Shown here in pieces: positions 14,421 through 63,471 of a stretch of 64,000 nt of DNA. Both the position numbers and the translations under genes were made by a program. This stretch comes from Agelas oroides (Eukaryota; Porifera; Demospongiae; Agelasida; Agelasidae). A model generated the notes under the pieces. The model made no database searches. It was not told the origin of the DNA and saw only the letters and a program-made list of their open reading frames with translations. Position 1 is the first letter of the stretch. Every line of letters begins with the position of its first letter. The DNA lies in the NCBI GenBank assembly GCA_949130485.1, contig OX422184.1:11911996-11975995 (forward strand), given 5' to 3'.

Positions 14421-14462
14421 TAGCCTCATTCCCAGGTGCCAACGGGCCTGGCAACGAGGCTA
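14421..14462. mobile_element. 42-bp mini-element with RecQ-element termini
   Basis: TAGCCTCATTCCCAGG at the left and CCTGGCAACGAGGCTA at the right form an inverted repeat with only about ten bases between. The ends match those of the transposon at 17736-23344. No convincing 9-bp target duplication flanks it. Confidence 0.7.
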
Positions 14463-16289: not shown

Positions 16290-17735
16290 ACGCATGAAGA
16301 GAGGTATTCAGGCCATTGAACTCGCCACCCAGAGCGGGTGACTCTACAAGGTGCAGATGTTGTCTTGGGTCCGGCCTGTTGACTGTTCCTCTTTGTAGGG
16401 CAGGGTGGCATTCAGACAGCACAGTAGAAGGATACATCTTCTACAGCAGTAGAGATGGTGTATGGTACAACACTACGTCTACCTGGAGGATTTTTCGCTG
16501 CTTACCCTACACTCTCTCTGATTGACCCCTCTGACTACGTATCCCAGCTCAAGGCCCACATGCAGCTTATACGTCCACCACCAAGGAACACAAGTGGTAG
16601 AGCATCCAAACATGAAGAGGGGTTGTGTTGGGCCTTCAGAGCAGCCTTCAGCTCACAATGGAATCGCTCAACCATGCCGTTGAACTGGGGATGGTAGGCA
16701 GTTGTACGAGCTCATTTTGATCCCAGTAGAGTCATCACTGTATGCCAATACTTCGATCCGTTACGATCGTGGAGGGGACACTGAAGCCAGCAATCCAGCC
16801 ACTGAGAAAGGCTTTAGCAACAGCCTCTGCAGTTATAGCAGTGAGGGGAATGGCTTCTGGCCACCTTGTGAACTGGTCAACGCAAGTCAGCAGATAGGTG
16901 AATCCTAGTAGGTCAATGTGGATGGAGTCGAATCTAGCATCGGGTGTTGGGAAGGGGGAGAGTGGAGTTGTTGAATGTCATTGAATCTTGGAACGCTGGC
17001 ACTGGAGGCAGCACGTATCCATCTGCGCACATCAGTGTTGATACCTGGCCACATGTACCAGTCAGTGATGAGCCTCTATGTTGCTCGAATCCCTGGATGA
17101 GAGAGTCCATGTAAGGAATCAAACATGGTGCGTCACTACTGAAGTGGGACGAGAGGGCACTGGGAGCCTGTAGATATATCACAGAGGAGGGTGTCACTCG
17201 ATGTGTAGCTGGGAGGACAAGGCACTGGATGAAGGACGTATGATCCCAAGCTGCAGCATGTGCTCAAACACTTGCTTGGCCACACTGAGATGTTCCGGTG
17301 CAATGTTATCTTTTCCCACTCCTCTCATAGCCCGTCTATTTGCCCCAAGGACACTAGGAACCCTTACCTCAACCTGTTGTCGGGCTCTCACTAAAGTCTG
17401 TTCTCCAGACAACTCTGTCATGCATGACGTCACTCACCACATCGAGACCACAGGCCCTCCAGTCTCGGCTCGCCCCAGACGCCTCACCTTGGATATATAG
17501 GTGAGTAGCTGCATCAACCAGTTTGTGTTGCAATCAGGGGGAGAAGGAGGTATGGTGCTCACTTTGGACTCTGTGTCCACCAGAAAGTGTGTCCCTGTGT
17601 GAGTGTCACTTACGTAAAAAAGGCGACAGATTTGGGCTGGGAGCACCTGTTCACCACTAGTGTCCGGCCTGGGAGTTTCCCCAGCTGCAAGGGTCCGTGC
17701 ACATCTTGGCCGCCTCACCAAATTTAGTGTGGTAC
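16290..17735 (-). pseudogene. Gypsy retrotransposon pol remnant, rearranged
   Basis: Read on the minus strand from right to left: a retropepsin-like stretch (RLFYVSDTHTGTHFLVDTES, about 17640-17570), the lead-in to reverse transcriptase (FEHMLQLGIIRPSSSALSS, about 17275-17205), an integrase zinc-binding region (GIRATQRLITDWYMWPGI, about 17090-17030), the integrase core (DARFDSIHIDLLG, then ARTTAYHPQFNGMVERFHCE, to about 16640) and a C-terminal TRSGWRVQWPEY near 16320. Reverse transcriptase and RNase H are missing between 17194 and about 17150. Two internal modules are on the opposite strand: HHIETTGPPVSARPRRLT at about 17430-17490 and VYGTTLRLPGGFF with YVSQLKAHMQLIRPP at about 16455-16620. 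Stops and frameshifts are frequent, so this copy is dead. Its gag part continues at 23354 beyond the inserted DNA transposon. Confidence 0.85.
17727..17735. repeat. Target-site duplication, left copy (GTGTGGTAC)
   Basis: The nine bases GTGTGGTAC immediately precede the left terminal inverted repeat and recur at 23345-23353 immediately after the right one. Flanking TA could extend the match to 11 bp on one reading, but nine keeps the two termini symmetrical. Confidence 0.9.
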
Positions 17736-17806
17736 TAGCCTCGTACCCAGGCCGCTCAAAAAATTAAATAAAACAGCCTGGTATCCACTGTTTGCGCACG
17801 TGCGGC
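17736..17806 (+). repeat. Left terminal inverted repeat
   Basis: 71 bp, starting TAGCCTCGTACCCAGGCCGC and ending GCGCACGTGCGGC. It aligns with the reverse complement of 23273-23344 with only a handful of differences in the A-rich middle. The repeat is itself a potential hairpin: TACCCAGGC near the outer edge is complementary to GCCTGGTA about 35 bp further in. Confidence 0.95.
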
Positions 17807-17935
17807 GGTTACGGTACACTTCCGTAAAATTGTACGGTTTTTATGTAGCCATTCACGTGACCATATCCGGACAAAGAATGCAATGTAGTATACGTACCCA
17901 CGTCTTATTATGTTTACTCGCGTTCGATCGCCGAC

Positions 17936-20900
17936 ATGCCTATTCTTTGTAGACTCTGTCTTTGCGAATTCGCTTCCAAGCGAGCCGTCGCTCTCTTCAG
18001 CGAAGTGGGGCTGCAGCAGAACTGGCCTTCTCATCTGCGCGAGCTGCTTCGCGTGCCTGTTTCCATTGAAGATGGACTATCCCAACATATCTGTCGCTCC
18101 TGTTCGGGTAAAGTGGAGACGGTCGAGCGCAAGCTTCAGGCCCTACAGCAGCAAGCTCGGGAGAGCATTGAAAAGATCATGCAGGCTTCTAGCAGAAAGT
18201 GTACCAAGGACACCAGTAGCGAGACAGGCGTTTCTCCATCCACCGCTAAAGCCCGTCCTCCAGCTAAGCGCATGTACTCAACAGGGGCAAGGCAGCTGTT
18301 TCCTTCAGTGAGCGAAGAAAGTTCGGGTAAGAAATGAATACAAGACAACAATGAAGTTGATTAAAAGCTGTTAGAGTACAAGTTTGCAATTATTCTCTTC
18401 TCTTTAGCTCTTTGTTGTCCACTGGTTGAACTTGATCTCAACTGTTCAGCTGCAACACAAGCTCCAACTACATGTAAGAGAAAAAGATCATACTTACTGT
18501 GTGTTAAACAAAGATCATACAGTTTCCTTTCCAACTGCAGCTACTTGTACTGTGAATGAGTCTGTGGCAGCACCCCGAAAATCAGTTACGGTATTTGTTA
18601 AATATACGCCAGTCACAGGCAGTCTTCCACTAACTTATTATATACACTACTGCATCCGCTTTTTTTTCCAGATGACAGTGGAAACACCATCTAGATCTGC
18701 CCCATTCCACACGCAGCTTGATGCTAGCCTCACCCAAGTGGGACGGGCCTTGGCTGGAGGTAACCTGCAGGCAATAGCAAAGGCAGTGTTCACCAGTGAT
18801 GGGTTGAGAAAGCAGTTATTGCAAAAATTCACAGATGCCCTAAACAATGAGGTCACTGAGTTGTGCAAAAAGCGTGCCAACCCACCATCTTTGTTCCGTC
18901 GAATTCCCATTGAAAAGGTATCAGACTTCAGGTGGTGTGACTGCATCGCTGAACTGAAGTTGAAGGCCCCAATCCTTCTGGAGGTGGTATCAGCACTAGT
19001 AAGCTGCAATGACAGCCGTAACAAACAGAAGCGTGGGGATGTTCACAACCCTGGGATCTGCATGGCAATCGCTATACTCCTGAAAGAAAGGAACAGAGAG
19101 ATGTGTGGGATTCAAACCCTGGTCTCACTGGTTTTGTTCACTTCACGTGTACAAAAGCAGGTACATGTACATACAAATGTAATATTGCCTGCAATATTAA
19201 TGATAACTTGCACATTTTTCCTAATTGTCAAATAGGTTTACACTCGACTCAACCATGTAAATGCCTCAATCAGTTACACTGCCACTATTCAAGCAGTTGA
19301 CGCAATCAGCAAGCAGCACAAACTGCCAGTCAACATGTGGGTCAGAGAGGGTGTGGAGTTCAAGTTTGTTGGTGACAATGTTGATAAAAAGAGGGGCGTA
19401 CGTGACATCAGGACAGACTGTCATGGGGAGATGAAGCACATGTTCAGCATACTTGCAGTCCGAAGCCGTGTACCTTCTCATCTTGCACACTCTGGTCCGG
19501 AATTAGATCTAGCTGACCTTTCCCCCTCCATGGTTCTCCCAACTGCCCGGGACATACAAGAGATACAAAACAGTCTTGTCATCCTTGTGAGCCGTATTCT
19601 TTGTTGCTACATGAAGTGCCTCTCATCTTTCTCAAGTCTTGTGCCTGGTCACATTCCTCATGAACACTCCAAGGAAATGGCTTGCAAGTCTGAGGTTGCA
19701 GTTCTTGATGTCCTGTCAAAGAACGAGGCTACACACAGTGACATGCTGGACATAATGAAGACACTACAAGGCTACCGTGGAGAGGAGTTTCCCAATGACA
19801 AGAAGGTTGTCTCAGGAGGAGATCAACTGACGTGTGAAAGGGAGGCTAATGCTCGACGTCATATGTTGGATGGTAACACTCCTCGTGAGCGTCTTGCACT
19901 TTTGGAGCCAGTTTGTGAAGACTGGCATGCTCTCATGTGTTTCCTTTGTGTAAGTTTTTGCGTGATTTCAAAGTGGTAGTTAACACAAATGCAGCAAGAC
20001 AAACTTACAAATCATTCTTACCCAATAAATATGCATTTGCTTTACCTTGAATTTTACACACTAACATACAGGTTATCTGGAAAACACTGTATAGCACAAG
20101 TTCCAGGGACCATGGCATACTTGGGCACTTTTGTAGTCTGCTTGGACGGCTGCCACGTGCGAAAGATCCTAAAAAGGATTTTGATGCCTGCCTTGATGCC
20201 TTGTTTACAGTTTTGAAAGGTCACTTTGTTGCAGCTGCCTGTTGTGAAATGGGCATCACTTCTCCCAATGATACTCCAGAGGCATTAATTGCAGTGCAAA
20301 GTGGTTCACCTGCACGACAAAAGCAGTACATATATGGCATAGCTAAGGCAGTAGTTGCAAAGTGTTCATTGGTTGGAGAGGCTATTCTTCTTCAAAAGAT
20401 ACCAAAAGGTGATGATCAAATAAACAACTATGCCCGTGTGTTGTGTTATCTTGGATCTCTAGCACTTGAATTTAGTGATGCATGGACAGAGGGAGATGGG
20501 GAGCGAATATGTCGCTGTTGGAGAGTGTTTCTCTTGCACTTTCGCATGAATGGAAATACAAAATATGCATGGGAAGCTCTTCGTCTACAACTACAGTTGC
20601 TGTCACTTCCCCCTCAGTTGAGCATGCAGATAAAGTGGAATCGCTGTGTGAATACACATGGAGGGTTGGGACGAAACATCCCTTGTGATCTCCACAATGA
20701 GCATATCAACAAGCTGTTCAAGGAAATCATAACAAACATGGGTGCGAACCTGACAGACGAAGCCATGCGACGAGCAGCACGATCTGTCACAACACTTCGT
20801 CAAATGCGAGACAATTTTGACAAACTGTCAGGAGTCCCTGTGGGAACAAGTGCTCATAGCACTCGACCAGATGACAGTGATGTTCTTCGTGTTGCCTCAG

Positions 20901-21190
20901 TTGTAATGAGGGATGACATATTAAGCAAAAAGTCAGGACGCTCACACTCAAGATTCCAGAAGATCTCAGCAAATCCTTTGTCAAAGTTGAAGAAAGAGAA
21001 ACTGCTAGACTGGATAAAGAGAAAAGTGAAGGAAACAGTTAAGTACAGGGAGCCACAAGGGGAGGGGAATTTGTCTGACTCAGATGCAAGTGATGGTGAT
21101 GAAGAAAGAGATAATGACGATGAACAGTTGAGTAATGACCAACAACCTTCTAGTGATGACCATTCAGATGATGAACTATCAGAACCATGA
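17936..21190 (+). CDS. DUF6589-type putative transposase with ZAD-like zinc module, 942 aa, six exons
   Basis: Proposed exons: 17936-18326, 18408-18473, 18541-18590, 18672-19160, 19236-19949, 20072-21190. All introns are GT-AG and 67-122 bp, and the joined frame has no stop (942 codons plus TGA). Residues 5-56 form a ZAD-like module with CRLC near the start and CRSC at 53-56, followed by a probable helix rich in Glu/Lys/Gln. The core has FKFVGDNVDKKRG (Asp379), then GGDQLTCEREANARR (Asp528) and CEDWHALMCFLC (Asp561), the order seen in DUF6589 proteins, plausibly acidic catalytic residues. Near residue 759 comes NTHGGLGRNIPCDLHNEHIN, the hallmark C-terminal block of that family. The last 40 residues are strongly acidic. 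The likely role is DNA binding and strand cleavage at the element's termini, in the nucleus; the catalytic role is inferred from family and context. The start at MPILCRLC is chosen because it places the first cysteine pair at the N-terminus. The gene appears intact. Confidence 0.88.
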
Positions 21191-21279
21191 CTATTTCCTA
21201 GATCTGTGTGATGGTATGTTATTAGATGTGTGATTGTATGTTATTAACTTACCGAGGTTTTTGAGGTCCACACTGCCAA

Positions 21280-21285
21280 TTTATT
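21280..21285 (-). terminator. Poly(A) signal AATAAA of the helicase gene
   Basis: AATAAA on the minus strand about 180 bp beyond the helicase stop codon. It lies inside the short region shared with the 3' end of the convergent gene, so the two transcripts probably overlap. Confidence 0.55.
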
Positions 21286-21457
21286 TTTTAACAAAATATA
21301 ATAGTTGATTAATACAGTTGCGTGACTCTCTTTCCCATGCTACCTCTGCAGTGCTTGTACATACTTTGCCACTAAACCTCGTTTTATCAGCACTGTATTC
21401 TTCATGGGGAGAATAGTCTAGCAGCTGCAATAACCAAGCATTTGCATTGAAGTTTCA

Positions 21458-21463
21458 ATTAAA
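21458..21463 (+). terminator. Possible poly(A) signal ATTAAA of the DUF6589 gene
   Basis: ATTAAA variant signal 268 bp after the stop codon, at the edge of the helicase coding region on the other strand. No canonical AATAAA on the plus strand was seen in the intergenic stretch. Confidence 0.35.
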
Positions 21464-21465
21464 GA

Positions 21466-23161
21466 TTAATCAGATTTAGCAACAACAGAGGCAGCACAAA
21501 CATCACAACACAACAAAGGATCACGGCAAGGAAGAGTCTTAATTAACATCGGATCAAAGTAACGTAACAACTGCACTCTACGACACTCTGCTGTATTCTC
21601 CGCATAACGTCTGACAGTGGCAAGCTCTGCATTTGCAGCAACACTTTGGTCCTTTCGCAAGGGAACATCGGATGGTCTCCATAACACAACTGACTTTGCT
21701 TGCTCTCCACTTCGTCCACCACGTCCGCTCTCCTGGAAATAATCTTCAATACATGTGGGTGCTCCGTAGTGCCAAATGGTGTTAACACCAACCAAGTTCA
21801 CACCCATGCCAAGGGCAACAGTTGCGAAAACAACACGAACAGTTCCATGAGCATCTTGCAAGCTCGCATGAATAACTTTCTTGTTATGGTCTGGTGTATT
21901 GGCATGGTACATGCCAAACAGTCTATTGTCACTAATCTGTTCTGTACCAGGTGGATAGTAGCTCTCCGTACCCAGTGTATACAAGAAATGAGCATACAAG
22001 TAAGCAACAGTATTTAGTGACCTACAAAACACTATCACCCGATTAGCTTTGTTGCGCTCAACTCGTAGTGACTCCACAATAGGTTGGAGATCGTCGTCAA
22101 TTGTTGAGCGTTGTCGAACCTCATAATAAATGTTTGGACGATCAGGTGAAATACAAACCATTTTGCAGCCTTTCATGTCTAATTTGTCTATCACATCATC
22201 CCGGATAGTTGGAGTCACAGTCGCTGTCGCAGCCAGAATGGGGATACCAGGAGGCACCAAGGCTCGTATTTCATGGAGTCGTCCGTACGTTGGCCTAAAC
22301 TTCAGACTCCTGTACGAACAACAGAAATGCAGGTAAAATCTACATCTCTCAACACAAATCAGCAGCATAACAACAAACTGCAGTGAAACTTACCACTTTG
22401 AGACACAGTGCGCCTCATCAACTGCAACAGCTGCAACTCGTTCAGACAACGGAGGATTTGGGAGTACTGCTCTTCATTTCTCAACTCCAACAATGGCTTC
22501 TGGTGCACTGAACAACAAGCTGAACTTGATGGCACGAAGTTCACTCACTGTAGCCTGCAGGTAGGTTTAGGCAAGCGTACTGAAATTATGATTGCGAGTC
22601 ACGAGAGCAATAGAATTTTAGTAGGAGTGTTTGCATAATTTACTCCGGATAACTGTACAATGTAGTTGTAGGAAACTGCCAACAATTCGTTCCCAGGCTT
22701 TTCCCTCTCCATTTTTGCATATTGTAAGCGATCAAAACCTGGACGGTGGGAAAGCCTGGGAACGGCGGTACGTTCAACTATGAATAGGTAAGCAACACTA
22801 CCTGCAAGTCAGTGCTAACACCAGGGTGGCCACTGACAATAGCTGCCATCACACCGCGTTCCCTCAGGCTGGTAAAAATGTTCACCATCAGTGACACCAA
22901 CGGCGAGATGACTAAAACAACGCTGTAACTCCCCTCTCCGCTCCCAACGTTGCCTCGCTTGTGGTCCAATACAAAAGGTAGCACCTCGTAACACACCGAC
23001 TTACCGAAGCCGGTGGGGAGCCACAAGAAAACGTCTTTCTCTTCGTATATGTAACGTACAGCCTCCAATTGTTGGGGCTTGAGAGTTAACTCCGGCCTTC
23101 CGATTCGCGAAAGTCCGTATGAAATAGAATCTTCAAACGCTTTCTCACTCGCTGCCATCAT
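21466..23161 (-). pseudogene. RecQ-family DNA helicase with one in-frame TGA
   Basis: Three exons on the minus strand: 23161-22802, 22554-22394, 22309-21466 (GT-AG introns of 247 and 84 bp), 454 codons before the final stop. An upstream in-frame ATG at 23209 would add 16 residues; I prefer the MMAASEK start. Helicase motifs in order: LKPQQLEAV (motif 0), LPTGFGKS (Walker A, residues 48-55), VISPLVSLM (Ia), DEAHCVSKW (II), FRPTYGRL, ATATVT (III), VIVFCRSLN (IV), ATVALGMGVNL (V), QESGRGGRSG (VI), then CRRVQLLRYF and CCDVC of a RecQ zinc-binding region. No RQC or HRDC domain follows. A TGA at 22476-22474 interrupts exon 2 (GVEK-stop-RAVL), where RecQ relatives would plausibly have Trp (TGG). Everything else is intact, so either one recent mutation inactivated this copy or the base is wrong. 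The partner gene converges on it. The role would be 3'-5' unwinding during transposition or repair of the donor gap. Confidence 0.9.
22688..22764. repeat. Hairpin related to the element termini inside helicase intron 1
   Basis: CGTTCCCAGGCTTTTCCC pairs with GGGAAAGCCTGGGAACG about 40 bp further on. The core matches the element family's terminal motif but lacks the outer TAGCCT. It lies wholly within intron 1 of the helicase. Confidence 0.7.
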
Positions 23162-23248
23162 ACTGCCATATTCGACGATACGGAAATGAAACGGGCGTAT
23201 ACGAAACAATTATACGAACGCATTTACAAACAAACGCGGATTAAACCG

Positions 23249-23271
23249 GATCCCCAGGTTTTTCTGGGGAT
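23249..23271. repeat. Short hairpin beside right TIR
   Basis: ATCCCCAG and CTGGGGAT separated by six bases form a perfect stem immediately inside the right terminal repeat and just upstream of the helicase gene. Confidence 0.7.
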
Positions 23272-23272
23272 G

Positions 23273-23344
23273 GCCGCACGTGCGCAAACAGTGGATACCA
23301 GGCCGTTTTTTTTTCATTTTTCGAGCGGCCTGGGTACGAGGCTA
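23273..23344 (-). repeat. Right terminal inverted repeat
   Basis: 72 bp, the reverse complement of 17736-17806 apart from changes in the A/T-rich middle; ends CGAGGCTA. Confidence 0.95.
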
Positions 23345-23353
23345 GTGTGGTAC
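23345..23353. repeat. Target-site duplication, right copy (GTGTGGTAC)
   Basis: Identical to 17727-17735 and directly abuts the right terminal inverted repeat. Confidence 0.9.
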
Positions 23354-23725
23354 CAGCAGATCAAGTTCTTGGGTGGCTTTGTCGGGGCTGGACTAGTAGC
23401 ACGGTGGGGTTTGGAAACCTTCGATGGTGAGATTGGGTGGTCAGGGATGCGACAAGGTCAGCTAGACATGCTACCTCTTCTCGGGGCTGCTTGACTTCGG
23501 AGTTGTTTGTGTGGTCAGAACGGGTGTCAGAGACTGGTGTGAGTGTGGCTACCTCCATCACCTTGTCTGCCATGTCTGCAGGCTTGTCCAGGTCCATAGA
23601 CGATTCAGCAGAGGCCAGGACCACCTTGACGTTGACAGGGAGCCTCTGGAGGAAAAGCTCCTCGCTAATGAATTGTTGCAGGAGTTTCCTCTGCTCTGAG
23701 ACAGCAGATAGCTTAACCCTTGATA
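23354..23725 (-). pseudogene. Gypsy gag remnant (other half of the interrupted element)
   Basis: Minus-strand translation gives ELFLQRLPVNVKVVLAS and DKPADMADKVMEVATL, typical of metazoan Gypsy gag C-terminal regions, then (after a frameshift) LICWYH, the first half of a CX2HX9CX3C zinc knuckle whose second half (KFGEAAKMCTDPC) lies at about 17680-17726 across the inserted transposon. A stretch before ELFLQRLP seems deleted. The remnant ends near TTAACCCTTGATATGCGG at 23716. Confidence 0.8.
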
Positions 23726-24210
23726 TGCGGAAGTAGTTATTAATTACGGTTTATTAGTGCGGAAGTTATTCAATATTAGCGTTATTAAATAGAGATTAAT
23801 GAAGTTAATCTGAGTTAACATAAGGAAGTGGACTACGCATGCGCACTTTAGTTACAGCTAATCATACACATGAAGCAGCTGTAGAACCAAGAGTACCAGC
23901 GGTAGCCAGTGCGACTTGTAATCGATCGGAGAGCGATGTCGTCAGCAGAGGAGCCAGCAGGCGGTGACGTAGAAGTCCGAACTCCCTTTACGGAGGAGCA
24001 AGTAGAGTTCTTGGGTTCGCTGGTAGAGAGGTCGGTGTCGAGAGCGCTCAAGTCACGGGAGAATACAGACCCTCTGCCGTCCACTGACCCGGCCGGAGCC
24101 GACCGAAGAGGTGAGCATGACCTATTACCTGTCAGATGCTAGAGCACGCTACGGCCGAAGCAGGGCACCTGAGCGGGGTTGCAGGCACTTCTGTCGGGGA
24201 CCAGACCTGG
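23726..24210. other. Short unidentified open frame, no element assigned
   Basis: A plus-strand frame from 23936 begins MSSAEEPAGGDVEVRTPFTE and continues to 24142. It resembles the start of a retroelement or transposon protein in composition, but I cannot name it. Confidence 0.25.
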
Positions 24211-25930
24211 TCAGGAGTGGGGGGGATTTGATCCATTTGGGACAATCAAAAAAATCAGGAGGAGCTTTTTGTGATAGAGTGACAGGAAATGCCTATAAAT
24301 TGATTCCCAGGTTTCAAGAAAAACGTGATGAGTACGTTTGAAATTTGAACCAATAGAATTGGGTTGGTAACCACTGGCCTTAGCTAAGTCGCTCAAACCT
24401 GCATCAAAGTATACCTTAAGTAATACTTCCTGATAATGTTTAAGGAAATGCCAATCACCAGGTATGGGAATCATCCATGATAAGTCATTTCCAAACTCTG
24501 CATAGATGTCACTAATTACATTTACCAGTGTCTCTTTGCTATCACATCTTTGATCTAGCACTTTGAAGTAAACAACATTAGAGCACTCTGGTGACTCCAA
24601 TACATCTACAGAAAGTAGCTAACAGAACCAGCAGTGAACTGCGTCGCTGATGTGGTTGCTGATGTGGTGGTCGCTATGTGGTATTGTGTGCTCTCCTGAT
24701 GTAGATACTAATGAAGCGAATTGATCAAGCAGATTTCTGCATGTGGCTTGTTCCATTCCAGTTCGCATGCATCTCATTCTTTTTGGAACAGGTGAACGCT
24801 TGCTAGGACTACATCATTTGCTAAGAGGAGAACGTGATGAGTGAAGACGTTTAGAGAGCCGTATTTCCGTAGTTGCAGAAGCAGGACTATGTAGTTCACG
24901 TTGTAAACAGGTTTCACTGCTTGTAGTTGTCTCGGCTTATGCTCCTTTTAACCCTGTACTGTACATAGCGAGCATGTGTGTCAGCACTAGTACAGATGTC
25001 TAAGCAATTTAATAGCTTAATGAGTCTGCTTGAGCCTCCACAAGTCTCAATAGCATCCGTCAGGAAAGTGTGCAAGGGAAATGAGCACTGACTGTTTGTG
25101 GTGTATAGCAAAACACATACACAAACAAAGCACCTGACTTTCCGAATATTTGATATGTCTGCACCCTTTATGGGTTGTGTTAACGTGCATAATGCTTTCC
25201 AAACATCTGGGTCAAGAATGCGTGATCACTCAAGCTGATATCAGTGTCCTGGGCATAAACGATGGACTGAGTTGATTGATCGCAAGTCAACTTGGCGAGC
25301 AATGCTACTACTGCAATCTCTAACTCCAATGACAAGAACACTATACAGTCTGTGACTGTGGTTGGAATGTTTGCCTTAGTTCCCATGGTAATGTTGATAT
25401 CTTCAATGCTGTGAGGTTGATATATATATCATACTGTCAATACAAGCATGGATGTTGGAGTTAAGAACAAGACAGCACTCTGACAATTTTTGTTGAAACT
25501 CAATGTTTTCTGCCACAGGAATCTCATCCCTGCAATCAGATGGGTGGTTCTGACTTTGTGCGCCAGGCACACATTGAGAGCATGGACAAGGTCACCACCA
25601 TGGTGATACAGGACTGTACCATACTTCTTGACACAACAACGGTATGCCATGTGGTGGTTAAGGAAGGATGAAAGCTGGCTTCGGAGACAGTTAGAAGTTA
25701 CCATGCCTCTAACATCTAAACGATCACATGCAATATCACGTAATTGGATGATGTGCAGTATTTTGTCATAGGTATGTGACCTTTGTTGCCTAGTTTGCTC
25801 AAGTCATCTCTACATGGCCTGCATATGCAAGAGTCAGGGAGGATGTCAAGAGATGGTTCACTCCGTCTGAGACACTCAAGTAGTGCTGCATCTTTCCACG
25901 ATTTAGGATGGAAATACTTAGACTGATTGC
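24211..25930 (-). pseudogene. Decayed transposon protein with Cys-rich N-terminus and PGDWH motif
   Basis: Read on the minus strand: around 25930-25750 FHPKSWKDAALLECLRRSEP then ILPDSCICRPCRDDLSKLG (a CxCxxC zinc-type cluster); around 25640-25540 YHHGGDLVHALNVCLAHK; around 25100-24930 FPLHTFLTDAIETCGGSSRL and LDICTSADTHARYVQYRV; around 24480-24330 MIPIPGDWHFLKHYQEVLLK then YFDAGLSDLAKASGY and SNFKRTHHVFLETWE. Long open stretches in several frames separated by stops show a single multi-domain protein in decay. The layout recalls DUF6589-like transposon proteins (N-terminal cysteines, GD/DWH block) but is not the same subfamily as the intact gene at 17936. No termini or target duplications were identified. 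Confidence 0.6.
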
Positions 25931-26803
25931 CTTGTTTGCACGGTAAGGTTCCCAGCGTTTAATACTGCTCTAGAGGTAGTTATTTACACACATGCAAATT
26001 CTAATACATTTACAAAATTCACCCTGTGCTAAAATGGGCATGTTACTTTTAACAAGCACAGGTACAATAGTACTATAGCTTCGGTTCCAGGCACTCTACT
26101 TTTACAAGCACCTAGCAATGGGGCTAGGACAATGGCTACCATGTAAATCATACATACTGTTCACAGCTTAGTACACTTGCAAAAAAACAATAACTTTAGT
26201 ACTTCCGGTTGAAAATGTTTCTTGCGGTTAACTCTGCGTTTTCTTGTTCACAATATATCTTGCGATATCTTGTGAAGCAATAATATTACAGCTTGAGTTC
26301 TGGTGGATTACTAGTACAATGGTTGAACATTAAAGCATGCAAAGAACTGAGTTGTTCTGCAGTACCGCCTGTACAGCAGAGAATGCTCAACATCGGTGCA
26401 TCTGGTAAAAAAATTAAAATCGGCCGTTTGCGCCTGCTGGCAATTTGACTGTAACTCATTAGCCAAAACAAACATCATTTTCATCATCAGAGTCATCCAT
26501 CCCCATAGACTGCTCTTGAAAGAAACAAACTTTGAACATCTACCATAATATGCACTGATACCATTGCTGTGAACTGTTGTGCTCCTAGCACAGGACTGAT
26601 TTAGATCCCCAGAAAATTTAAAACTGGATGAGGTGTTGTATGTACTTGATCTTTAAATGATGTTGCGCGGTGCCACCCTCTCCATTGAATGTTGTTATAA
26701 AAAGTGGGTACGGTACCATTTGACTTCGGAAAGCCATATCTTGGGGTAAAATATAGGTAACCCAGGCAATATGCATATTGTTCAATTGCTCTAAGGCTGC
26801 TCT
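25931..26803. other. No recognised gene
   Basis: Only short frames; nothing I can support. Confidence 0.4.
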
Positions 26804-33619: not shown

Positions 33620-34445
33620 CTTCACCAGTCACGTAGCAGTTGTAGGAGTCGTTGAAGTTTGTTTGGTGGTAGGCGTAATTCCATGGCACTCGAATCGATC
33701 TCAATGCCCAGCACTGTCAAACATGGTGCCGGGCCTTCTCTCTTTTCTTCGGCTAAAACCATGCCGAGTTGCTCGCAAGTTGCTACTAATGTGCGATAAA
33801 TGTGGAGGCATTGCGGGGAGTCAGGAGGGCCCACCAGCACAAAATCGTCAATGTAGTGGTATACATGTTCAATACCTCTTGCCGTGCTATCCATTCCAGT
33901 GCGTCGGCGATGGCTGAAAATATTAGGGGAGCCGATCGTAAACCGAAAGGTAGTGTGGTATCGGCGTAGTATGATCCCTGCCAGCACATGCCGAGTAGTG
34001 GCCTATCTTCGGGGTGTACCGGTACCTGTCTATATGCGCTTTTAACGTCACATTGTGCAATGTCGTCTACGGACACGTATGATAAGGAGCAGTTGTTCGA
34101 GTCAATGTCATCATTCACGCTGGTCCCTTGCGGATGTGAGAGGTCTAGAATGAGGCGCCACTTTCCTGGGTTGTTGCACTTCGGTATTACTCCGAACCTG
34201 CTTATATGCAAATTTACCATGATTGGGTCGAATGGTAGCTTGATTACCCTGTTTGCTTCACATTCAGCTCTGAGATACTCACCGACAACCTCTGGATGTT
34301 CGTACGCAGAGATAATATTCTGTTTTGCAGAGGTGCATGGTCGTGCTTTTACGTAGTTGAAGCCTATGCGGAAGCCTCTCGTGATTCCTTCCGTTATGTA
34401 TTCTGCAAACTCCCTATCTGGGTGAGTTTGGAGCGCCTCTCACCA
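33620..34445 (-). pseudogene. DIRS reverse transcriptase
   Basis: Minus-strand reading: REFAEYITEGITRGFRIGFN, then HISRFGVIPKCNNPGKWRLI, LDLSHPQGTSVNDDID, CDVKSAYRQVPVHPEDRPLL (first catalytic Asp region), TLPFGLRSAPLIFSAIADAL, and after a frameshift HVYHYIDDFVLVGPP (the YxDD box, as YIDD) and LTVLGIEIDSSAMELRLPP. Motif order is complete, with one frameshift before the YIDD box. Confidence 0.88.
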
Positions 34446-36977: not shown

Positions 36978-37043
36978 TAGCCTCATTCCCAGGCACCCCC
37001 TCATGTGCGAACGAAAAGTTGAAAGGAAAGGCGAGAGCCTGGT
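36978..37043. mobile_element. Solo terminus of the RecQ-element family
   Basis: TAGCCTCATTCCCAGGCACC begins a hairpin closed by GAGAGCCTGG about 50 bp on, the same terminal architecture as 38901 and 44978. I found no partner end, so it is a solo or truncated copy. Confidence 0.6.
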
Positions 37044-38900: not shown

Positions 38901-39902
38901 TAGCCTCGTTCCCAGGCTCTCCCCTCGCCCCGACGAAAATAAAAACGGAGGGGGAGAGCCTGGGACCAATTCGCACGTGATATCGCGGCACGTAGACGTC
39001 ACAGCAATAATTACAAAAGTCGTGACTGTGATGGACTGCTTATTATTATGATTTATATTGCTTATCATTATGATTTATAGTTCCATAGGGTTTTCCATAT
39101 TTGGTTATTTCTGTAACACTTCTTTTGCTGTATAAGATAGGGCAGGTGCACGTTTGCTACAAATACTGTGGGTTCCTGTGTTTGTGTATCACCTTTAGGT
39201 TATGTCTTTTGGTTCAATATATAATATTTACATTCTGGTTTTCCTGTTAGGTCAGTTGTGCAATCCTTTTGGTTATAGATCATTTTGATACTGTAACTAC
39301 TTAAAGCTCTGGAAGTTCAATTGTGTGTGTGTTCAGTTGAGTTCGATTTTGTTTGCTGCTAAGTTTGATTATCTCTCGGCTGTCGCGCAGACTCGGCCCA
39401 CTCTATCACAGTGACGCAATTATGCAGCCACGTGATTGGCTGACTCGAACAGCTACGATATAACTACTGAAACAAGTGAGCTGTGACTGCGTCGGTGAGA
39501 CCTCGACACGGGTCAAACAGCAACGACGGCGGAGAAGTACCCAATACGTAGGAAAAACTGCCTATTTTCTGTTACCATGTTCCGCTTTAAAAAAAAGGGC
39601 TACGAGGCTATGAAGAAAGACTTTAGTTGGCTAGCGCTACACTCTGGCATACAAAATAAACTCACAACCACATTTTAAAGCTCCAACATAGCTACACAAC
39701 AATAAATGAGTTGTAGTAACAAACTCCTGAGCTGAGAGTACTTCGCAGCTCCTTCACGGTCTTCATGTGAGTGACGTTTCAGGTTATTTAATGGTTAGTG
39801 CAAAGTCGTTGTGCCGCGATATCACGTGCGAATCGGTCCCAGGCTCTCCCCCTCCGTTTTTATTTTTTGTCGGGACGAGGGGAGAGCCTGGGAACGAGGC
39901 TA
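38901..39902. mobile_element. 1,002-bp non-autonomous relative of the RecQ element
   Basis: Terminal inverted repeats of about 90 bp start TAGCCTCGTTCCCAGGCTCT and each contain a subterminal hairpin closed by GAGAGCCTGGGACC; the inner TIR parts include ATATCGCGGCAC and its complement. Flanks ACTCTTCTT (left) and ACTGTTCTT (right) form a 9-bp target duplication with one mismatch. No coding capacity is visible. Termini and duplication length match the element at 17736-23344, which suggests mobilisation by the same transposase. Confidence 0.85.
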
Positions 39903-40506: not shown

Positions 40507-42364
40507 AACAATTTCAGGTCAGCTAATACTTGACCAAACTATACAAAATGGGTATCAAACAGTTCCATTTGGTGTGTACAATCATAATCAGTCACATATT
40601 ATACCAATATTTCCATTGCATGACAAGCATCAGAGTATGATCATATACACAAACTATCACAAGTGTGTCCCACAAAGTAACCAATATGTACAAGTGGTAA
40701 AATCACAACCGTACCTAGACTCTTTTTGAACCACTCATACCAAAATGAAAACAAACATCAGATTGTACACATCGAATGGAACTGTTTGATACCCATTTGG
40801 TATAGTTTGGTCAAGTATTAGCTGTTTCGGGCCTGAAATTGTTAGTTACAAGTAACCGATATGTACAAGTGGTAAAATCACAACCGTACCTAGATTCTTT
40901 TCGAACTACTCATACCAAAATGAAAACAAACATCAGATTATGAATGTACACATCAAATGGAACTGTTTGATACCCATTTTGTATAGTTTGGTCAAGTATT
41001 TGCTGCTTCAGGGATGATATTGTTAGTTACAACTAACCGATACGTTGGTAAAACCACAACCGTACCCAGACTATTTTCAGAACACCTACTCCAAAATGAA
41101 AACAATATGAATGTACACACCAAATAGAACTGTTTGATACCCATTTGGTATAGTTTGGTCAGGTATTAGCTGTTTCGGGCCTGAAATTGTTAGTTACAAG
41201 TAACCGATATGTACAAGTGGTAAAATCACAACCGTACCTAGACTCTTTTTGAACTACTCATACCAAAATGAAGACAAACATCAGATTATGAATGTACACA
41301 TCAAATGGAACTGTTTGACACCCATTTTGTATACTTTGGTCAAGTATTAGCTGCTTCAGGGATGATATTGTTAGTTACAAGTAACCGATTAATGTACAAG
41401 TGGTAAAATCACAACCCCGTACCTAGACTCTTTTTGAACTACTCATACCAAAATGAAGACAAACATCAGATTATGAATGTACACATCAAATGGAACTGTT
41501 TGACACCCATTTTGTATACTTTGGTCAAGTATTAGCTGCTTCAGGGATGATATTGTTAGTTACAAGTAACCGATTAATGTACAAGTGGTAAAATCACAAC
41601 CGTACCTAGACTCTTTTTGAACTACTCATACCAAAATGAAAACAAACATCAGATTATGAATGTACACATCAAATGGAACTGTTTGATACCCATTTTGTAT
41701 AGTTTGGTCAAGTATTTGCTGCTTCTGGGATGATATTGTTAGTTACAACTAACCGATACGTTGGTAAAACCACAACCGTACCCAGACTATTTTCAGAACA
41801 CCTACTCCAAAACGAAAACAAACATCAGATTATGAATGTACACACCAAATGAAACTGTTTGATACCCATTTGGTATAGTTTGGTCAAGTATTAGCTGTTT
41901 CGGGCCTGAAATTGTTAGTTACAAGTAACCGATATGTACAAGTGGTAAAATCACAACCGTACCTAGACTCTTTTTGAACTACTCATACCAAAATGAAGAC
42001 AAACATCAGATTATGAATGTACACATCAAATGGAACTGTTTGACACCCATTTTGTATACTTTGGTCAAGTATTAGCTGTTTCAGGGATGATATTGTTAGT
42101 TACAAGTAACCGATTAATGTACAAGTGGTAAAATCACAACCGTACCTAGACTCTTTTTGAACTACTCCTACCATAGTTTTGAATGATGCCACAGCAAGTG
42201 CAACAGCTGTCTCTTCCAACAAAACCTTTCCATTGGGCAATTCCATTTTGTGTTTGCCCCTTGACACATCTCTTCATTGAGTAGCTTTTGGGAATTTCGG
42301 ACAGTGACTCCTGCAGTTACTTGTCACTAACAATTTCAGGCCCGAAACAGCTAATACTTGACCA
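40507..42364. repeat. ~180-bp satellite array, about nine units, with inverted border fragments
   Basis: The marker GTAACCGATATGTACAAGTG recurs near 40674, 40850, 41030, 41199, 41377, 41561, 41744, 41925 and 42105 (spacing 169-184 bp). Each unit also contains ACAAACATCAGATTATGAAT and GAACTGTTTGATACCCATTT. Three variants can be told apart (GATATGTACAAGTGG; GATACGTTGG; GATTAATGTACAAG), in the order a a b a c c b a c. Inverted fragments of the unit lie at both borders (about 40507-40590 and 42327-42364). Confidence 0.92.
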
Positions 42365-44977: not shown

Positions 44978-45426
44978 TAGCCTCGTTCCCAGGCCTCCCC
45001 CGTTTTCGTTCTTCGGTTTGCGTTCAATATAATACACGGAGGCAGAAGAGCGCGAGAAACGGGGAAGGCCTGGGAACACTTATCACGGGAATGACGTCAG
45101 GTGGACGCGAGGTGGACGTAGGGAGGGCGGTGCCCGACTACAAGTACGGGCGTAATAAACCTGAGAGCGAGTTTCTTACCGGTCAAGCGGAGTACTCGCG
45201 ATCTTGTGAACGTCTGGAGTCTTGCCTGGCGATAGAGCGCTCGATGATGAAGTCTAGTACGTTATTTCTGAATGCAGACCCCTCCCCCCTACGTCCACCT
45301 CGCATCCACTGACGTCATTCACGTGATAAGTGTTCCCAGGCCTTCCCCGTTTTTCGCGCTCTTTCGCCTCCATGTATTGAACGCAAACCGAAGAATGAAA
45401 ACGGGGGAGGCCTGGGAACGAGGCTA
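44978..45426. mobile_element. 449-bp non-autonomous relative of the RecQ element
   Basis: Terminal inverted repeats of about 130 bp starting TAGCCTCGTTCCCAGGCCTC, each a hairpin closed by GAAGGCCTGGGAACACTTAT, with the inner parts containing CGTGATAAGTGTTCCCAGG. It interrupts the Gypsy integrase C-terminus. Flanks GAGAGACTC and GTTATATAC do not match, so no 9-bp duplication is left. No coding capacity. Confidence 0.85.
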
Positions 45427-50265: not shown

Positions 50266-50626
50266 TGTCTAACATACCAATCTTTTTTTGGTCTGCAGAC
50301 CACTGCTGTTTCCTTGTCCGTAACTGAACCTGAGTATTTCGGCATCTATGAAGCAGAGACTCAGCCGTTCCCGGGCTACCACTTCCCGCATTGGTTGACA
50401 AGGCTCTTCAAACATACATATACAAGAATATAAAAACATTAAAAATGTAAAAAGATGTAGGGATGGCATGCCAAAAAGTATGCAAACAAGGTAGGGATGA
50501 TGCATGCAAGCAAAGGTCAACATATTGGCAAAGCCCCATCCCTACATCTTTTTCACACTGCAGTCAGGGGGCCTTCCTAAAACGTAGCATAAGTACACCC
50601 CAACCTTTACTGGCAGTTCATGGCTG

Positions 50627-50683
50627 TAGCCTCGTTCTCAGGCAACTTCCCAGCTCCTCCCACATGACCTGGGAATGAGGCTA
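50627..50683. mobile_element. 57-bp mini-element with RecQ-element termini
   Basis: TAGCCTCGTTCTCAGG at the left and CCTGGGAATGAGGCTA at the right, about 25 bp apart; no target duplication seen. Confidence 0.7.
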
Positions 50684-50724
50684 GTATGATCCAGCATTAT
50701 GTAAGTGTTGTAAAAGCGTGGTTT

Positions 50725-50778
50725 TAGCCTCATCCCAAGGCCACCTTCCTCCTCCCACCTGGCCTAGGAACGAGGCTA
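50725..50778. mobile_element. 54-bp mini-element with RecQ-element termini
   Basis: TAGCCTCATCCCAAGG at the left and CCTAGGAACGAGGCTA at the right. It lies 41 bp from the previous mini-element and shares its CTTCC-CTCCTCCCAC middle, so the two may be related by duplication. Confidence 0.7.
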
Positions 50779-51541
50779 ATATTATTTGCAGCTGTATAGG
50801 TATGTTTGCCTCATAGGTAGCTATAAGATAGCTACCAAGTAGCTTTACTGCCAAGATACTACTTGTAGTGACAGTAGCACCCTTGTTACATGCCTCTGAT
50901 ACAACCCAGACACTGAGCTTGAGTGGGCTGCAGACTGATTAGTGTGCAAAAATCAAGTACTCATGCACAGCATTAATAACTGCATGGATGGGTGCAGATT
51001 CAGCTCTAAAACATGCATGCTGTCTAACTGCAGTGTGAAAAAGATGTAGGGATGGGGCTTTGCCAATATGTTGACCTTTGCTTGCATGCATCATCCCTAC
51101 CTTGTTTGCATACTTTTTGGCATGCCATCCCTACATCTTTTTACATTTTTAATGTTTTTATATTCTTGTTTCTTTCCTTTTTCACTCAGTTACAGTTAGA
51201 CCTAAGCATCATGAAGAATATTTCTTTCAAGTGTAACCACAGCCTTAGAACTTGAAACAGCATTGACAGATTAGTAGTGGTTTCAAGCATGTAATATGCC
51301 AGTTGGAATCCGATGTAGAGCCAACCACTCTCCACCAGATTTTTAGCCCGCTTTGTGAAGCAGATTTCCTACTGAGCTGATCACGACAACTGACCAGCAA
51401 ATCTGTGACCATCCCAGCTTTACTAAAGTTATGAGTATCTTTTAGTGTAGCTATAAGTAAGCAACTGAATGCAGCTCCTTACCTACTTGGTGTCCATGAA
51501 CCTTTCCGACCCCGTGCTTACTGGCAAACGCGTGTGCACTA

Positions 51542-54372: not shown

Positions 54373-54590
54373 GCAGTCCCATGTAGAAATCGAAGGTTAT
54401 TCCGTCTTGTATTTCGATCGCATTACTGTGTTTGAAGCGCCGTATCGCTGAACTTCCGTTAAGGGCGGGGCTCATACGTGCTTCGTAGACGCAGAACATC
54501 TAATGAATCTACGAAGCGCATATGAGCACACAGCGATGTGATCGAAATACGCGACGGAATAACCTTCGATTTCTACACGGGACTGCCTCA
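54373..54590. repeat. Internal inverted duplication in the second HIRAN element
   Basis: AGAAATCGAAGGTTATTCCG and ATTTCGATCGCAT on the left arm reappear as the reverse complement (ATGTGATCGAAAT, CGGAATAACCTTCGATTTCT) on the right. The loop contains a further inverted pair, GCTTCGTAGA and TCTACGAAGC. Confidence 0.85.
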
Positions 54591-59075: not shown

Positions 59076-59128
59076 TAGCCTCGTTTCCAGGCTCCCTTCT
59101 TAGTGGGGAGAGCCTGGGAACGAGGCTA
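59076..59128. mobile_element. 53-bp mini-element with RecQ-element termini
   Basis: TAGCCTCGTTTCCAGGCTCC at the left and GAGAGCCTGGGAACGAGGCT plus A at the right. ACCTGGG flanks both sides (59069-59075 and 59130-59136), a possible imperfect target duplication. Confidence 0.75.
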
Positions 59129-60629: not shown

Positions 60630-61157
60630 ATGCCCCATCCCCATATCACATCGTGTTTTAAACTTCACACTTTATATATGTGTGGAAATGTTCACATCAT
60701 GAACATCGATGTGCCAGCGGTGTTGGTGCTCCCCCACACGACAACTTCTGAACATGCAGGTACAGATAAAGTCTGTCAGCCTTGCCAAATGGGGAACCCA
60801 CAGAATCCTTCAATGGCACACCCTAGACTTAAACAGCATAACATTAAGCACCAGGCTAGACCTTCTCACTGTGCATGTAGGAATATCTCCAATAATAATT
60901 TCTTGTCCCAAACCCCATTCCCATTTTCCAAAGTTAACCATAGGATAGCCCCTCAGTTTGAGATAATTGAGCCGGAGGCTCAGGTGGTGGATAGTGAGAG
61001 TATCCACTCAGGCAATGTGCTTGGTACAGTCAACCCACCCAGGCCCGCAACCCCGTCCGCAGGGGATCTCCACTTAGCTACCACAGTGTATTCAATTGCG
61101 AGAGGAAGGACAGCTGTAGTCAAAAGACCCCGTCTCCACATATATACACGTGAATAA
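60630..61157 (+). CDS. Unrecognised 175-codon frame in the left arm
   Basis: Reads through TDKVCQPCQMGNPQNPSMAH, then NFLSQTPFPFSKVNHRIAPQ and TVNPPRPATPSAGDLHLATT. No domain recognised. The diverged copy in the right arm does not keep the frame throughout, which argues against a conserved protein, though the left copy alone may be coding. Confidence 0.25.
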   Translation: MPHPHITSCFKLHTLYMCGNVHIMNIDVPAVLVLPHTTTSEHAGTDKVCQPCQMGNPQNPSMAHPRLKQHNIKHQARPSHCACRNISNNNFLSQTPFPFSKVNHRIAPQFEIIEPEAQVVDSESIHSGNVLGTVNPPRPATPSAGDLHLATTVYSIARGRTAVVKRPRLHIYTRE

Positions 61158-61744
61158 AGTATAAAGCCCGTATCCTAACACAGCCCCTGACCCAACCCGT
61201 AGAGAAACCTACAGCATGCACATAGAGTGGTTCCAGTATCTGAGCTTACTGTTGCAACTTAGTCACAAGTGAGCCTTCCAAAAAACATCTTTACAACCAA
61301 CTCAACCAGCTGTGAGTGAGCCTCACAGCAGTATGTCAAGTGTAAGAGAGCCTGACACTCGTTAATCTGAGTGAGCCCCAGACCCATACTGTCATTGTAA
61401 GTGAAGTACTCACCCACTTTCCAAACTCTGGCTATCGAGTGATGGCTCCGCTCTCTGGCATGTTGATGGCGATCATAAGCTCATCAGGTACGTTTTTGTA
61501 GGTGACAATCTGCAAATGATGTAACTGCCAGTTGTGTGCCACTATGTTGGAAGGGGAGTGAACTGGGAAATTGTATTATGGGGTTGTTCTATGACATGTG
61601 ACATGACTCTTTTAGAAACCTTCTGTACTGCCACTATAAATTGATCAAGTCCAACTGTGGTCTCACAGAACCACTCTTCAACCATATACACTTCCCCTAT
61701 GCCCTCTTCCCCCTCCCTCCTCTTACAAATTAAAATAAGCATTT

Positions 61745-61875
61745 GTAGGGATGGATAACCTCATTCTGATCTGAGCTGCTTCATTCTAGTCACCTCATTC
61801 TAATCCAGTATGATGATCTCATATTGAAATGGGTTCCACCATTCCAATATCTGCCACTCCATTCTGAACCGGTTT
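61745..61875. repeat. Loose CATTCTAATC-type repeat (inverse of 62275-62415)
   Basis: CTCATTCTGATC, TTCATTCTAGTC, CTCATTCTAATCC and CCATTCTGAACC follow each other, the reverse complement of the better array at 62275. Confidence 0.6.
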
Positions 61876-62274
61876 ATAATCTAAAAATACACAATTTTGG
61901 CACTGTTTACACACCATAATTTAGTGTTGCATTTGGAACGTAGCTTTGTTTGAGTTTGTCCAGAGGTACCTAAATACCGTATTTCTTTGAGTAGATGGTG
62001 CCCTCGAATAGCCGCACAATCAGGAGCTCTGGGCGAAATAAACACCGCCCTCGAATAGTACCCGCGGCTACTATATGCGGCACACGCACAAGTACGTGAA
62101 GAATTTCTGACGATGAGCTAGGGCTGTTTGTGTTGCCAGACTCGTTTCCACAGTTGACAGCAGGACTGAGAGACTGCGCTTACTACTAACAGCGTCGTGT
62201 CAGTCCATACTAAAAATATCTATTTATCTTTTCCACAATGTACAAGTGAGGGGTGGATTTCCTTCAGAATGTGG

Positions 62275-62415
62275 TGATGCAAATCGGAGTGAGGTAGCTC
62301 AGATCAGAATGAGGTGGTCCAGATTAGAATGAGGAAGCCCAGATTAGAATGAGGTGCCCCAGATTAGAATGTGGTGGCCCAGATTAGAATGAAGTGGCCC
62401 AGATTAGAATGCAGC
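62275..62415. repeat. 21-bp minisatellite (GGCCCAGATTAGAATGAGGT)
   Basis: Six to seven copies of CCAGATTAGAATGAGGTG with small changes, inside the spacer of the long inverted repeat. Confidence 0.85.
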
Positions 62416-63471
62416 AGTTTTAAACCAAGACACATTTTAGTAGCTATGGAGAGGAAAGAGAGTACATTATGAAGCTGGAATTACCAAAGAGAGGATCACA
62501 GTTGAAGTTACACTGAAGGAAACTGCTGCACAGGACCCAAAGCAAAGAAAAGAGCTCAAGACATTCATGACAAGCTAATGGCTGAACTCAGTGTGGGATG
62601 TGGTCGGTGGGCTTTAAACGGGAGTGTGCTTCTCCTAGTAATGGCATACTTATCCTAGTAACGGCATCTTTACACTAGTTATGGCGTGAGCTTTGCTATA
62701 GTAACAGTACGTACCACCTAGAGGTCTAGTCGGGTCTGTAAGGCTGAGCTATGGCTAGGGGGGCACATTCTCCATGTAGCGTTCCTTACAATACATCATC
62801 GTTACGTCACGTACTGTTGCTGTTCTTACGCTATGAACGTCACAGCTACCGTTAACGTGCAAGACAACAAAAAAAAAGGAAAAATCCCATTCCCTGGCCC
62901 TAGCCCTAACCATTCGGCTATGAGGCACTGCTGACGACTCTGGTGCACCACACTGCCTTTAACGCACCAACCAACATTACAGTATAATATTACTAAGTTT
63001 TTGGAAGGCTCACTTGGGACTAAGTTGCAACAGTAAGCTCAGATACTGGAGCCTCTCTATGTGCATGCTGTAGGTTTCTCTATGGGCTGGGTCAGGGGCT
63101 GTGTTAGGATAAGTGCTTTATACAATCATGTGTATTATGTGGTAGCTAAGTGGTGATCCTGCGGACGGGGTTGCGGGCTTGGGTGGGTTGACTGTACAGC
63201 ACATTACCTGTGCAGATACTCTCACTATCCACCACCTCAGCCTCCAGTTCAATTATCTCTTCACCAAGGGGCTTTCCTATGGTTGACTTTGGAAACTGGG
63301 AATGGGGCTGGGGCAAGGAATTATTATTGGAGAGATATTCCTACATGCACAGTGGGAAGTCTAGCCTGGTGCTTGTTATGTTTAGGTCCAGGGCATGCCT
63401 AAGGTCGCATACACGAAGTGTGAAGCATAATGGGATATGGGGATGGGGCATTTATGGCCCTTTCCAGCCAA

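Follow-up and report, generated by a model that had tools for sequence, protein, structure and literature searches.

A probable AcademH-type transposon carrying DUF6589 and RecQ helicase genes in the sponge Agelas oroides

Here we describe a 5,609 bp transposon from the sponge Agelas oroides that is bounded by terminal inverted repeats (TIRs) and holds two convergent multi-exon genes, one encoding a protein with the Pfam domain DUF6589 and the other a RecQ helicase. The element occupies positions 17736-23344 of the window, the 64,000-nucleotide stretch of contig OX422184.1 that was analysed, and is a real, nearly complete transposon in a slightly decayed copy. We consider it very probably (about 0.85) one copy of a cut-and-paste DNA transposon of the AcademH type. 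That Academ elements can carry a helicase has already been published; the present element is a good specimen and not a new class.

Ends, target site and surroundings of the element

The two TIR arms align with 93.1 % identity over 72 columns (blastn), with one 1-nt gap in their local alignment, which confirms the 71/72-bp repeats of a preliminary description made from the sequence alone. The perfect 9-bp flanking duplication given there was also recovered (Table 1). By comparison, random pairs of 9-mers drawn from the window agreed at 8 or more of 9 positions in 32 of 200,000 draws. The maximal direct repeat around the element is 11 bp (TAGTGTGGTAC) because the terminal TA recurs by chance in the flank. 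The bases directly outside the element ends are also inverted (C/G) and, since they are complementary, the longest symmetric reading of the duplication is 9 bp. Judged on one copy, the true duplication of the 5,609-bp copy might be 7 or 5 bp; the 8/9 flanking repeat of the element at 38901-39902, which has the same outer ends, supports a length of 9 bp. When the empty site was rebuilt by joining two 150-nt flanks with the duplication retained once, a frame on the minus strand crossed the junction, reading NLICWYHTKFGEAAKMCTDPCSWGN. That the joined flanks can be read through on this strand shows the insertion to be a true and clean one.

Table 1 Features of the element and of related structures in the window
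Feature	Positions	Strand	Remarks
Left copy of target-site duplication	17727-17735	+	9 bp, GTGTGGTAC; 9/9 identical to 23345-23353
Left TIR	17736-17806	+	71 nt; begins TAGCCTCGTACCCAGGCC; inverted internal GCCTGG
Right TIR	23273-23344	-	72 nt
Right copy of target-site duplication	23345-23353	+	9 bp, GTGTGGTAC
DUF6589 gene, probable transposase	17936-21190	+	942 aa; exons 17936-18326, 18408-18473, 18541-18590, 18672-19160, 19236-19949, 20072-21190
RecQ helicase gene	21466-23161	-	exons 23161-22802, 22554-22394, 22309-21466 (stop codon included)
Inverted pair of end motif	22685-22767		2 mismatches each to 14-nt pattern; helicase intron 1
Shorter element, presumably non-autonomous	38901-39902		same outer ends; TIR 91/92 nt; flanks ACTCTTCTT / ACTGTTCTT, 8/9
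Shorter foldback element, presumably non-autonomous	44978-45426		same outer ends; without 9-bp duplication (4/9)

Decayed gag/protease-like frames flank the element on the minus strand, at 17434-17735 (reading LFYVSDTHTGTHFLVDTESKVS) and 23354-24138. Read by eye, these flanks look like the gag and protease of a decayed LTR retroelement; Pfam gave no family for the frames at 17434-17763 (which extends 28 nt inside the element) and 23848-24138, and a weak unrelated match (E 0.089) for 23364-23750. Further on, at about 24211-25958 of the minus strand, lie broken frames with a PGDWH motif. Among them the 135-aa piece IPIPGDWHFLKHYQEVLLKVYFDAG matches DUF6589 at E 0.091 (Pfam), six other pieces gave no DUF6589 match, and one fossil piece had no relatives in viral contigs. 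This region may be the fossil of a second DUF6589 lineage adjoining the element. Another decayed retroelement, with weak RVT_1 matches below the cut-off (1.7e-5 and 0.0033), lies at 33625-34439 (minus strand). Pfam searches of 20 other ORFs of the window returned DUF6589 once, at the E of 0.091, a weak reverse transcriptase twice, and nothing or weak unrelated matches for the rest; no Rfam family or tRNA was identified in the window.

The DUF6589 and helicase genes

As described earlier, the two genes converge and fill the interior, leaving gaps of 129 nt and 111 nt to the TIRs. Splice sites of both were picked by eye, without a transcript, and follow GT..AG in the DUF6589 gene. Once its six exons are joined, the plus-strand gene reads through 942 codons to a stop with no internal stop, as previously claimed. 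Pfam places DUF6589 at residues 428-832 of the 942-aa protein (4.5e-54), and the acidic motifs that had been listed with this block start at residues 378 (GDN), 526 (GGDQ) and 560 (EDWH). A ZAD N-terminus had been proposed as well: a zf-AD-like match does cover residues 4-64 (2e-5) but at 25.2 bits falls short of the Pfam cut-off of 28. No other transposase family was found by Pfam in this protein, which we infer to be the transposase of the element.

Comparison of the DUF6589 protein with solved structures returned two chance-level matches only (E 0.69 and 0.84), and single-sequence AlphaFold models of exon 5 and exon 6 alone had a mean pLDDT of 38.6 and 43.0, too low to speak for or against an RNase H fold. 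A tblastn search of the window revealed no second copy of the gene, and a single copy carrying both genes was observed. The protein of exons 5 and 6 had no relatives in viral contigs or prokaryote genome contigs, collections that say little for a eukaryotic element, and the DUF6589 profile had no match in the viral contig that contains an end-motif match or in 14 control genomes, an uninformative outcome as nothing matched anywhere. Directly past the DUF6589 stop (21190-21460), the plus strand contains neither AATAAA nor ATTAAA; an AATAAA is located at 21285 on the minus strand, beyond the helicase stop.

The RecQ identity of the minus-strand gene, originally read from its motifs, is borne out by Pfam matches to DEAD (2.1e-17), Helicase_C (6e-13) and RecQ_Zn_bind (1.2e-8) and, among solved structures, by a closest match to human WRN (7.6e-47, residues 26-447 aligned). 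Exon 2 contains one in-frame TGA (22476-22474), so the helicase gene of this copy is broken. The earlier view of a near-intact two-gene transposon stands for the ends, the duplication and the DUF6589 frame but was too generous for the helicase gene. Neither of the two joined proteins matched XPG in Pfam at E up to 1. The inverted pair of the end motif in helicase intron 1 is perhaps an old tiny copy; it has no flanking duplication longer than 4 bp.

Relation to AcademH and other helicase-bearing transposons

AcademH elements have TIRs, as does the Agelas element (71/72 nt, 93 %), and the nuclease of AcademX is XPG. Membership in AcademH, whose defining feature is homology of the transposase, is probable on the grounds of the architecture, the duplication length and the helicase. 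According to PMC10045372 (2023), AcademH produces duplications of 9 or 10 bp and AcademX of 3 or 4 bp, a difference that this paper suggests is related to the presence of a helicase versus a nuclease. The Agelas element is like AcademH in both its accessory helicase and its duplication. AcademX, by description the same superfamily, has the shorter duplication and a nuclease instead of a helicase (same paper), whereas the Agelas element combines a 9-bp duplication and a helicase with no nuclease match in its two joined proteins; a literature search found nothing that pairs Academ with an XPG nuclease. The DEAD and Helicase_C domains are a further likeness, AcademH being among their listed sources in PMC10799480. 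AcademH was described by Kojima (2020, Mob DNA 11:15), in a paper whose title places it in animals and fungi, and 'RecQ Helicase in Academ' had been cited by 2013 (PMC3627910). Curated Academ elements of bivalves, their lineage not being stated, average 5,565 bp (PMC10294476) versus 5,609 bp for the Agelas element. The Agelas copy differs from AcademH in the stop codon within its helicase. Subtelomeric RecQ genes are treated in PMC4522978.

The likeness to an Academ lineage with an accessory helicase, recognised in the preliminary description, thus agrees with published AcademH. The same description considered a duplication of 9 bp at odds with Academ, for which it gave 3-4 bp, and suggested that the element may therefore belong to a distinct or poorly described group. 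According to PMC10045372 AcademH makes 9 or 10 bp; the objection is overturned, and with it the novelty argument fails, since the duplication points to AcademH.

Could a DUF6589 transposase have been paired independently with a RecQ helicase in a distinct, undescribed superfamily? The searched literature, a set that leaves the primary AcademH paper outside, yielded no link between DUF6589 and Academ. However, that papers do not use the word DUF6589 is a matter of nomenclature and cannot serve to judge homology, and both the helicase and the 9-bp duplication match AcademH as described in PMC10045372, which makes a separate superfamily quite unlikely. It is very improbable that the interval consists of two unrelated genes or fragments caught between copies of a short repeat. 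The end motif is indeed common in the window, with 13 further matches at up to 3 mismatches, but the arms match over 71/72 nt, the duplication is perfect, the flanks join readably and the interior is filled by genes to within 129 nt and 111 nt of the TIRs.

The literature also offers Kolobok, which duplicates TTAA and some members of which carry a RecQ helicase (PMC9587614); in Kolobok-1_CCri this accessory helicase is on the complementary strand, as in the Agelas element. A KolobokH-like element, with a Kolobok transposase and a RecQ helicase, is nevertheless hardly credible here: the duplication is GTGTGGTAC and not TTAA, Pfam shows no other transposase family for the DUF6589 protein, and KolobokH is said, in PMC9587614, to be known only from fungi. 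We retain AcademH as the most probable affiliation of the element.

Shared ends, shorter elements and a proposed mechanism

An 18-nt end of the element, allowing up to 3 mismatches, has 15 matches in the window, where 0.02 would be expected. Besides the element's own two there are 13, of which 10 can be grouped into five inverted pairs; the match at 14445 has a partner in a looser scan. Lone looser copies of the motif, with 3 mismatches each and partnerless in the 18-nt scan, were observed at 36978 and 49002 (plus strand). Two structures, presumably non-autonomous, are too short for the DUF6589 and helicase genes (38901-39902 and 44978-45426) and have in common with the main element both TAGCCTCGTNCCCAGGC on the outside and, further in, an inverted GCCTGG. 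At all six ends of these three longer elements, CACG comes after the inner GCCTGG, within 25 nt, a pattern that occurs by chance in 14 of 5,000 shuffled ends and 23 of 5,000 random window stretches but that was defined after viewing the alignment and on paired, non-independent ends, leaving three hindsight observations. The ends look like a bipartite recognition signal, predicted from their motifs to be common to the autonomous element and its shorter kin. Beyond these motifs the elements are dissimilar. At E 1e-3 (blastn) the main element matched only its own ends in the window, so that the case for kinship with the shorter ones depends on short motifs at the ends.

For the six other end-sharing structures, in-register comparison of the flanks gave an 8/9 duplication once and 4, 3, 4, 3 and 0 of 9 for the others. 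Four of the structures are near-palindromes of 42-57 bp consisting of nearly only two ends (14421-14462, 50627-50683, 50725-50778 and 59076-59128). None has an in-register 9-bp duplication; at 59076-59128 a 9-bp repeat, ACCTGGGTA, appears only if the ends are shifted, and 50627-50778 read as one unit shows no duplication longer than 4 bp. We propose that the four are deletion derivatives or excision remnants. Five other inverted-repeat structures, selected among the 25 longest pairs out of 54, are found at 50422-51169, 61159-63123, 60960-63259, 54373-54586 and 40808-42364; no exact duplication of at least 5 bp lies 6 bp or less from the ends of their arms, but their true ends may lie further out. 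Among viral contigs, the end motif matched once in one contig, phage-like by ORF reading, and a 14-mer of the end matched 55 stretches once each, which we take as chance.

Single-strand folding was assessed on six ends, with lengths chosen by the analyst. Hairpins are supported for the four ends of the two shorter elements (z -3.3, -4.1, -6.8 and -4.9). Hairpin ends as a helicase substrate are not supported for the main element, whose ends gave z of -0.56 and -1.06, with 49 and 33 of 200 shuffles folding equally well.

In the mechanism that we propose, the ZAD-like N-terminus of the DUF6589 protein would bind the element ends or dimerise, and the DUF6589 core would cut and join through D379 (GDN) and D528 (GGDQ), with a third catalytic acid perhaps in the EGDGER block (residues 710-715). 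If the target were cut with a stagger of 9 bp, a duplication of that length would follow. The RecQ helicase would act as an accessory, opening the ends or the target or helping to repair the donor gap, and the end-sharing shorter elements would be mobilised in trans by the DUF6589 transposase or a relative. In a more tentative and unlikely reading, the element represents a subgroup of AcademH characterised by the ZAD-like N-terminus and by two-part ends, in which TAGCCTCGTNCCCAGGC lies outside and an inverted GCCTGG, then CACG, further in; one transposase would move several non-autonomous families via these ends, and the RecQ helicase would act on foldback ends.

The Agelas element is useful as a specimen for the question of why certain transposons come with a RecQ helicase. 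Its main value, our analysis suggests, is as a hint at the function of DUF6589: a Pfam family described only as of unknown function may act as a transposase, given that one member is encoded between mapped ends flanked by a target-site duplication.
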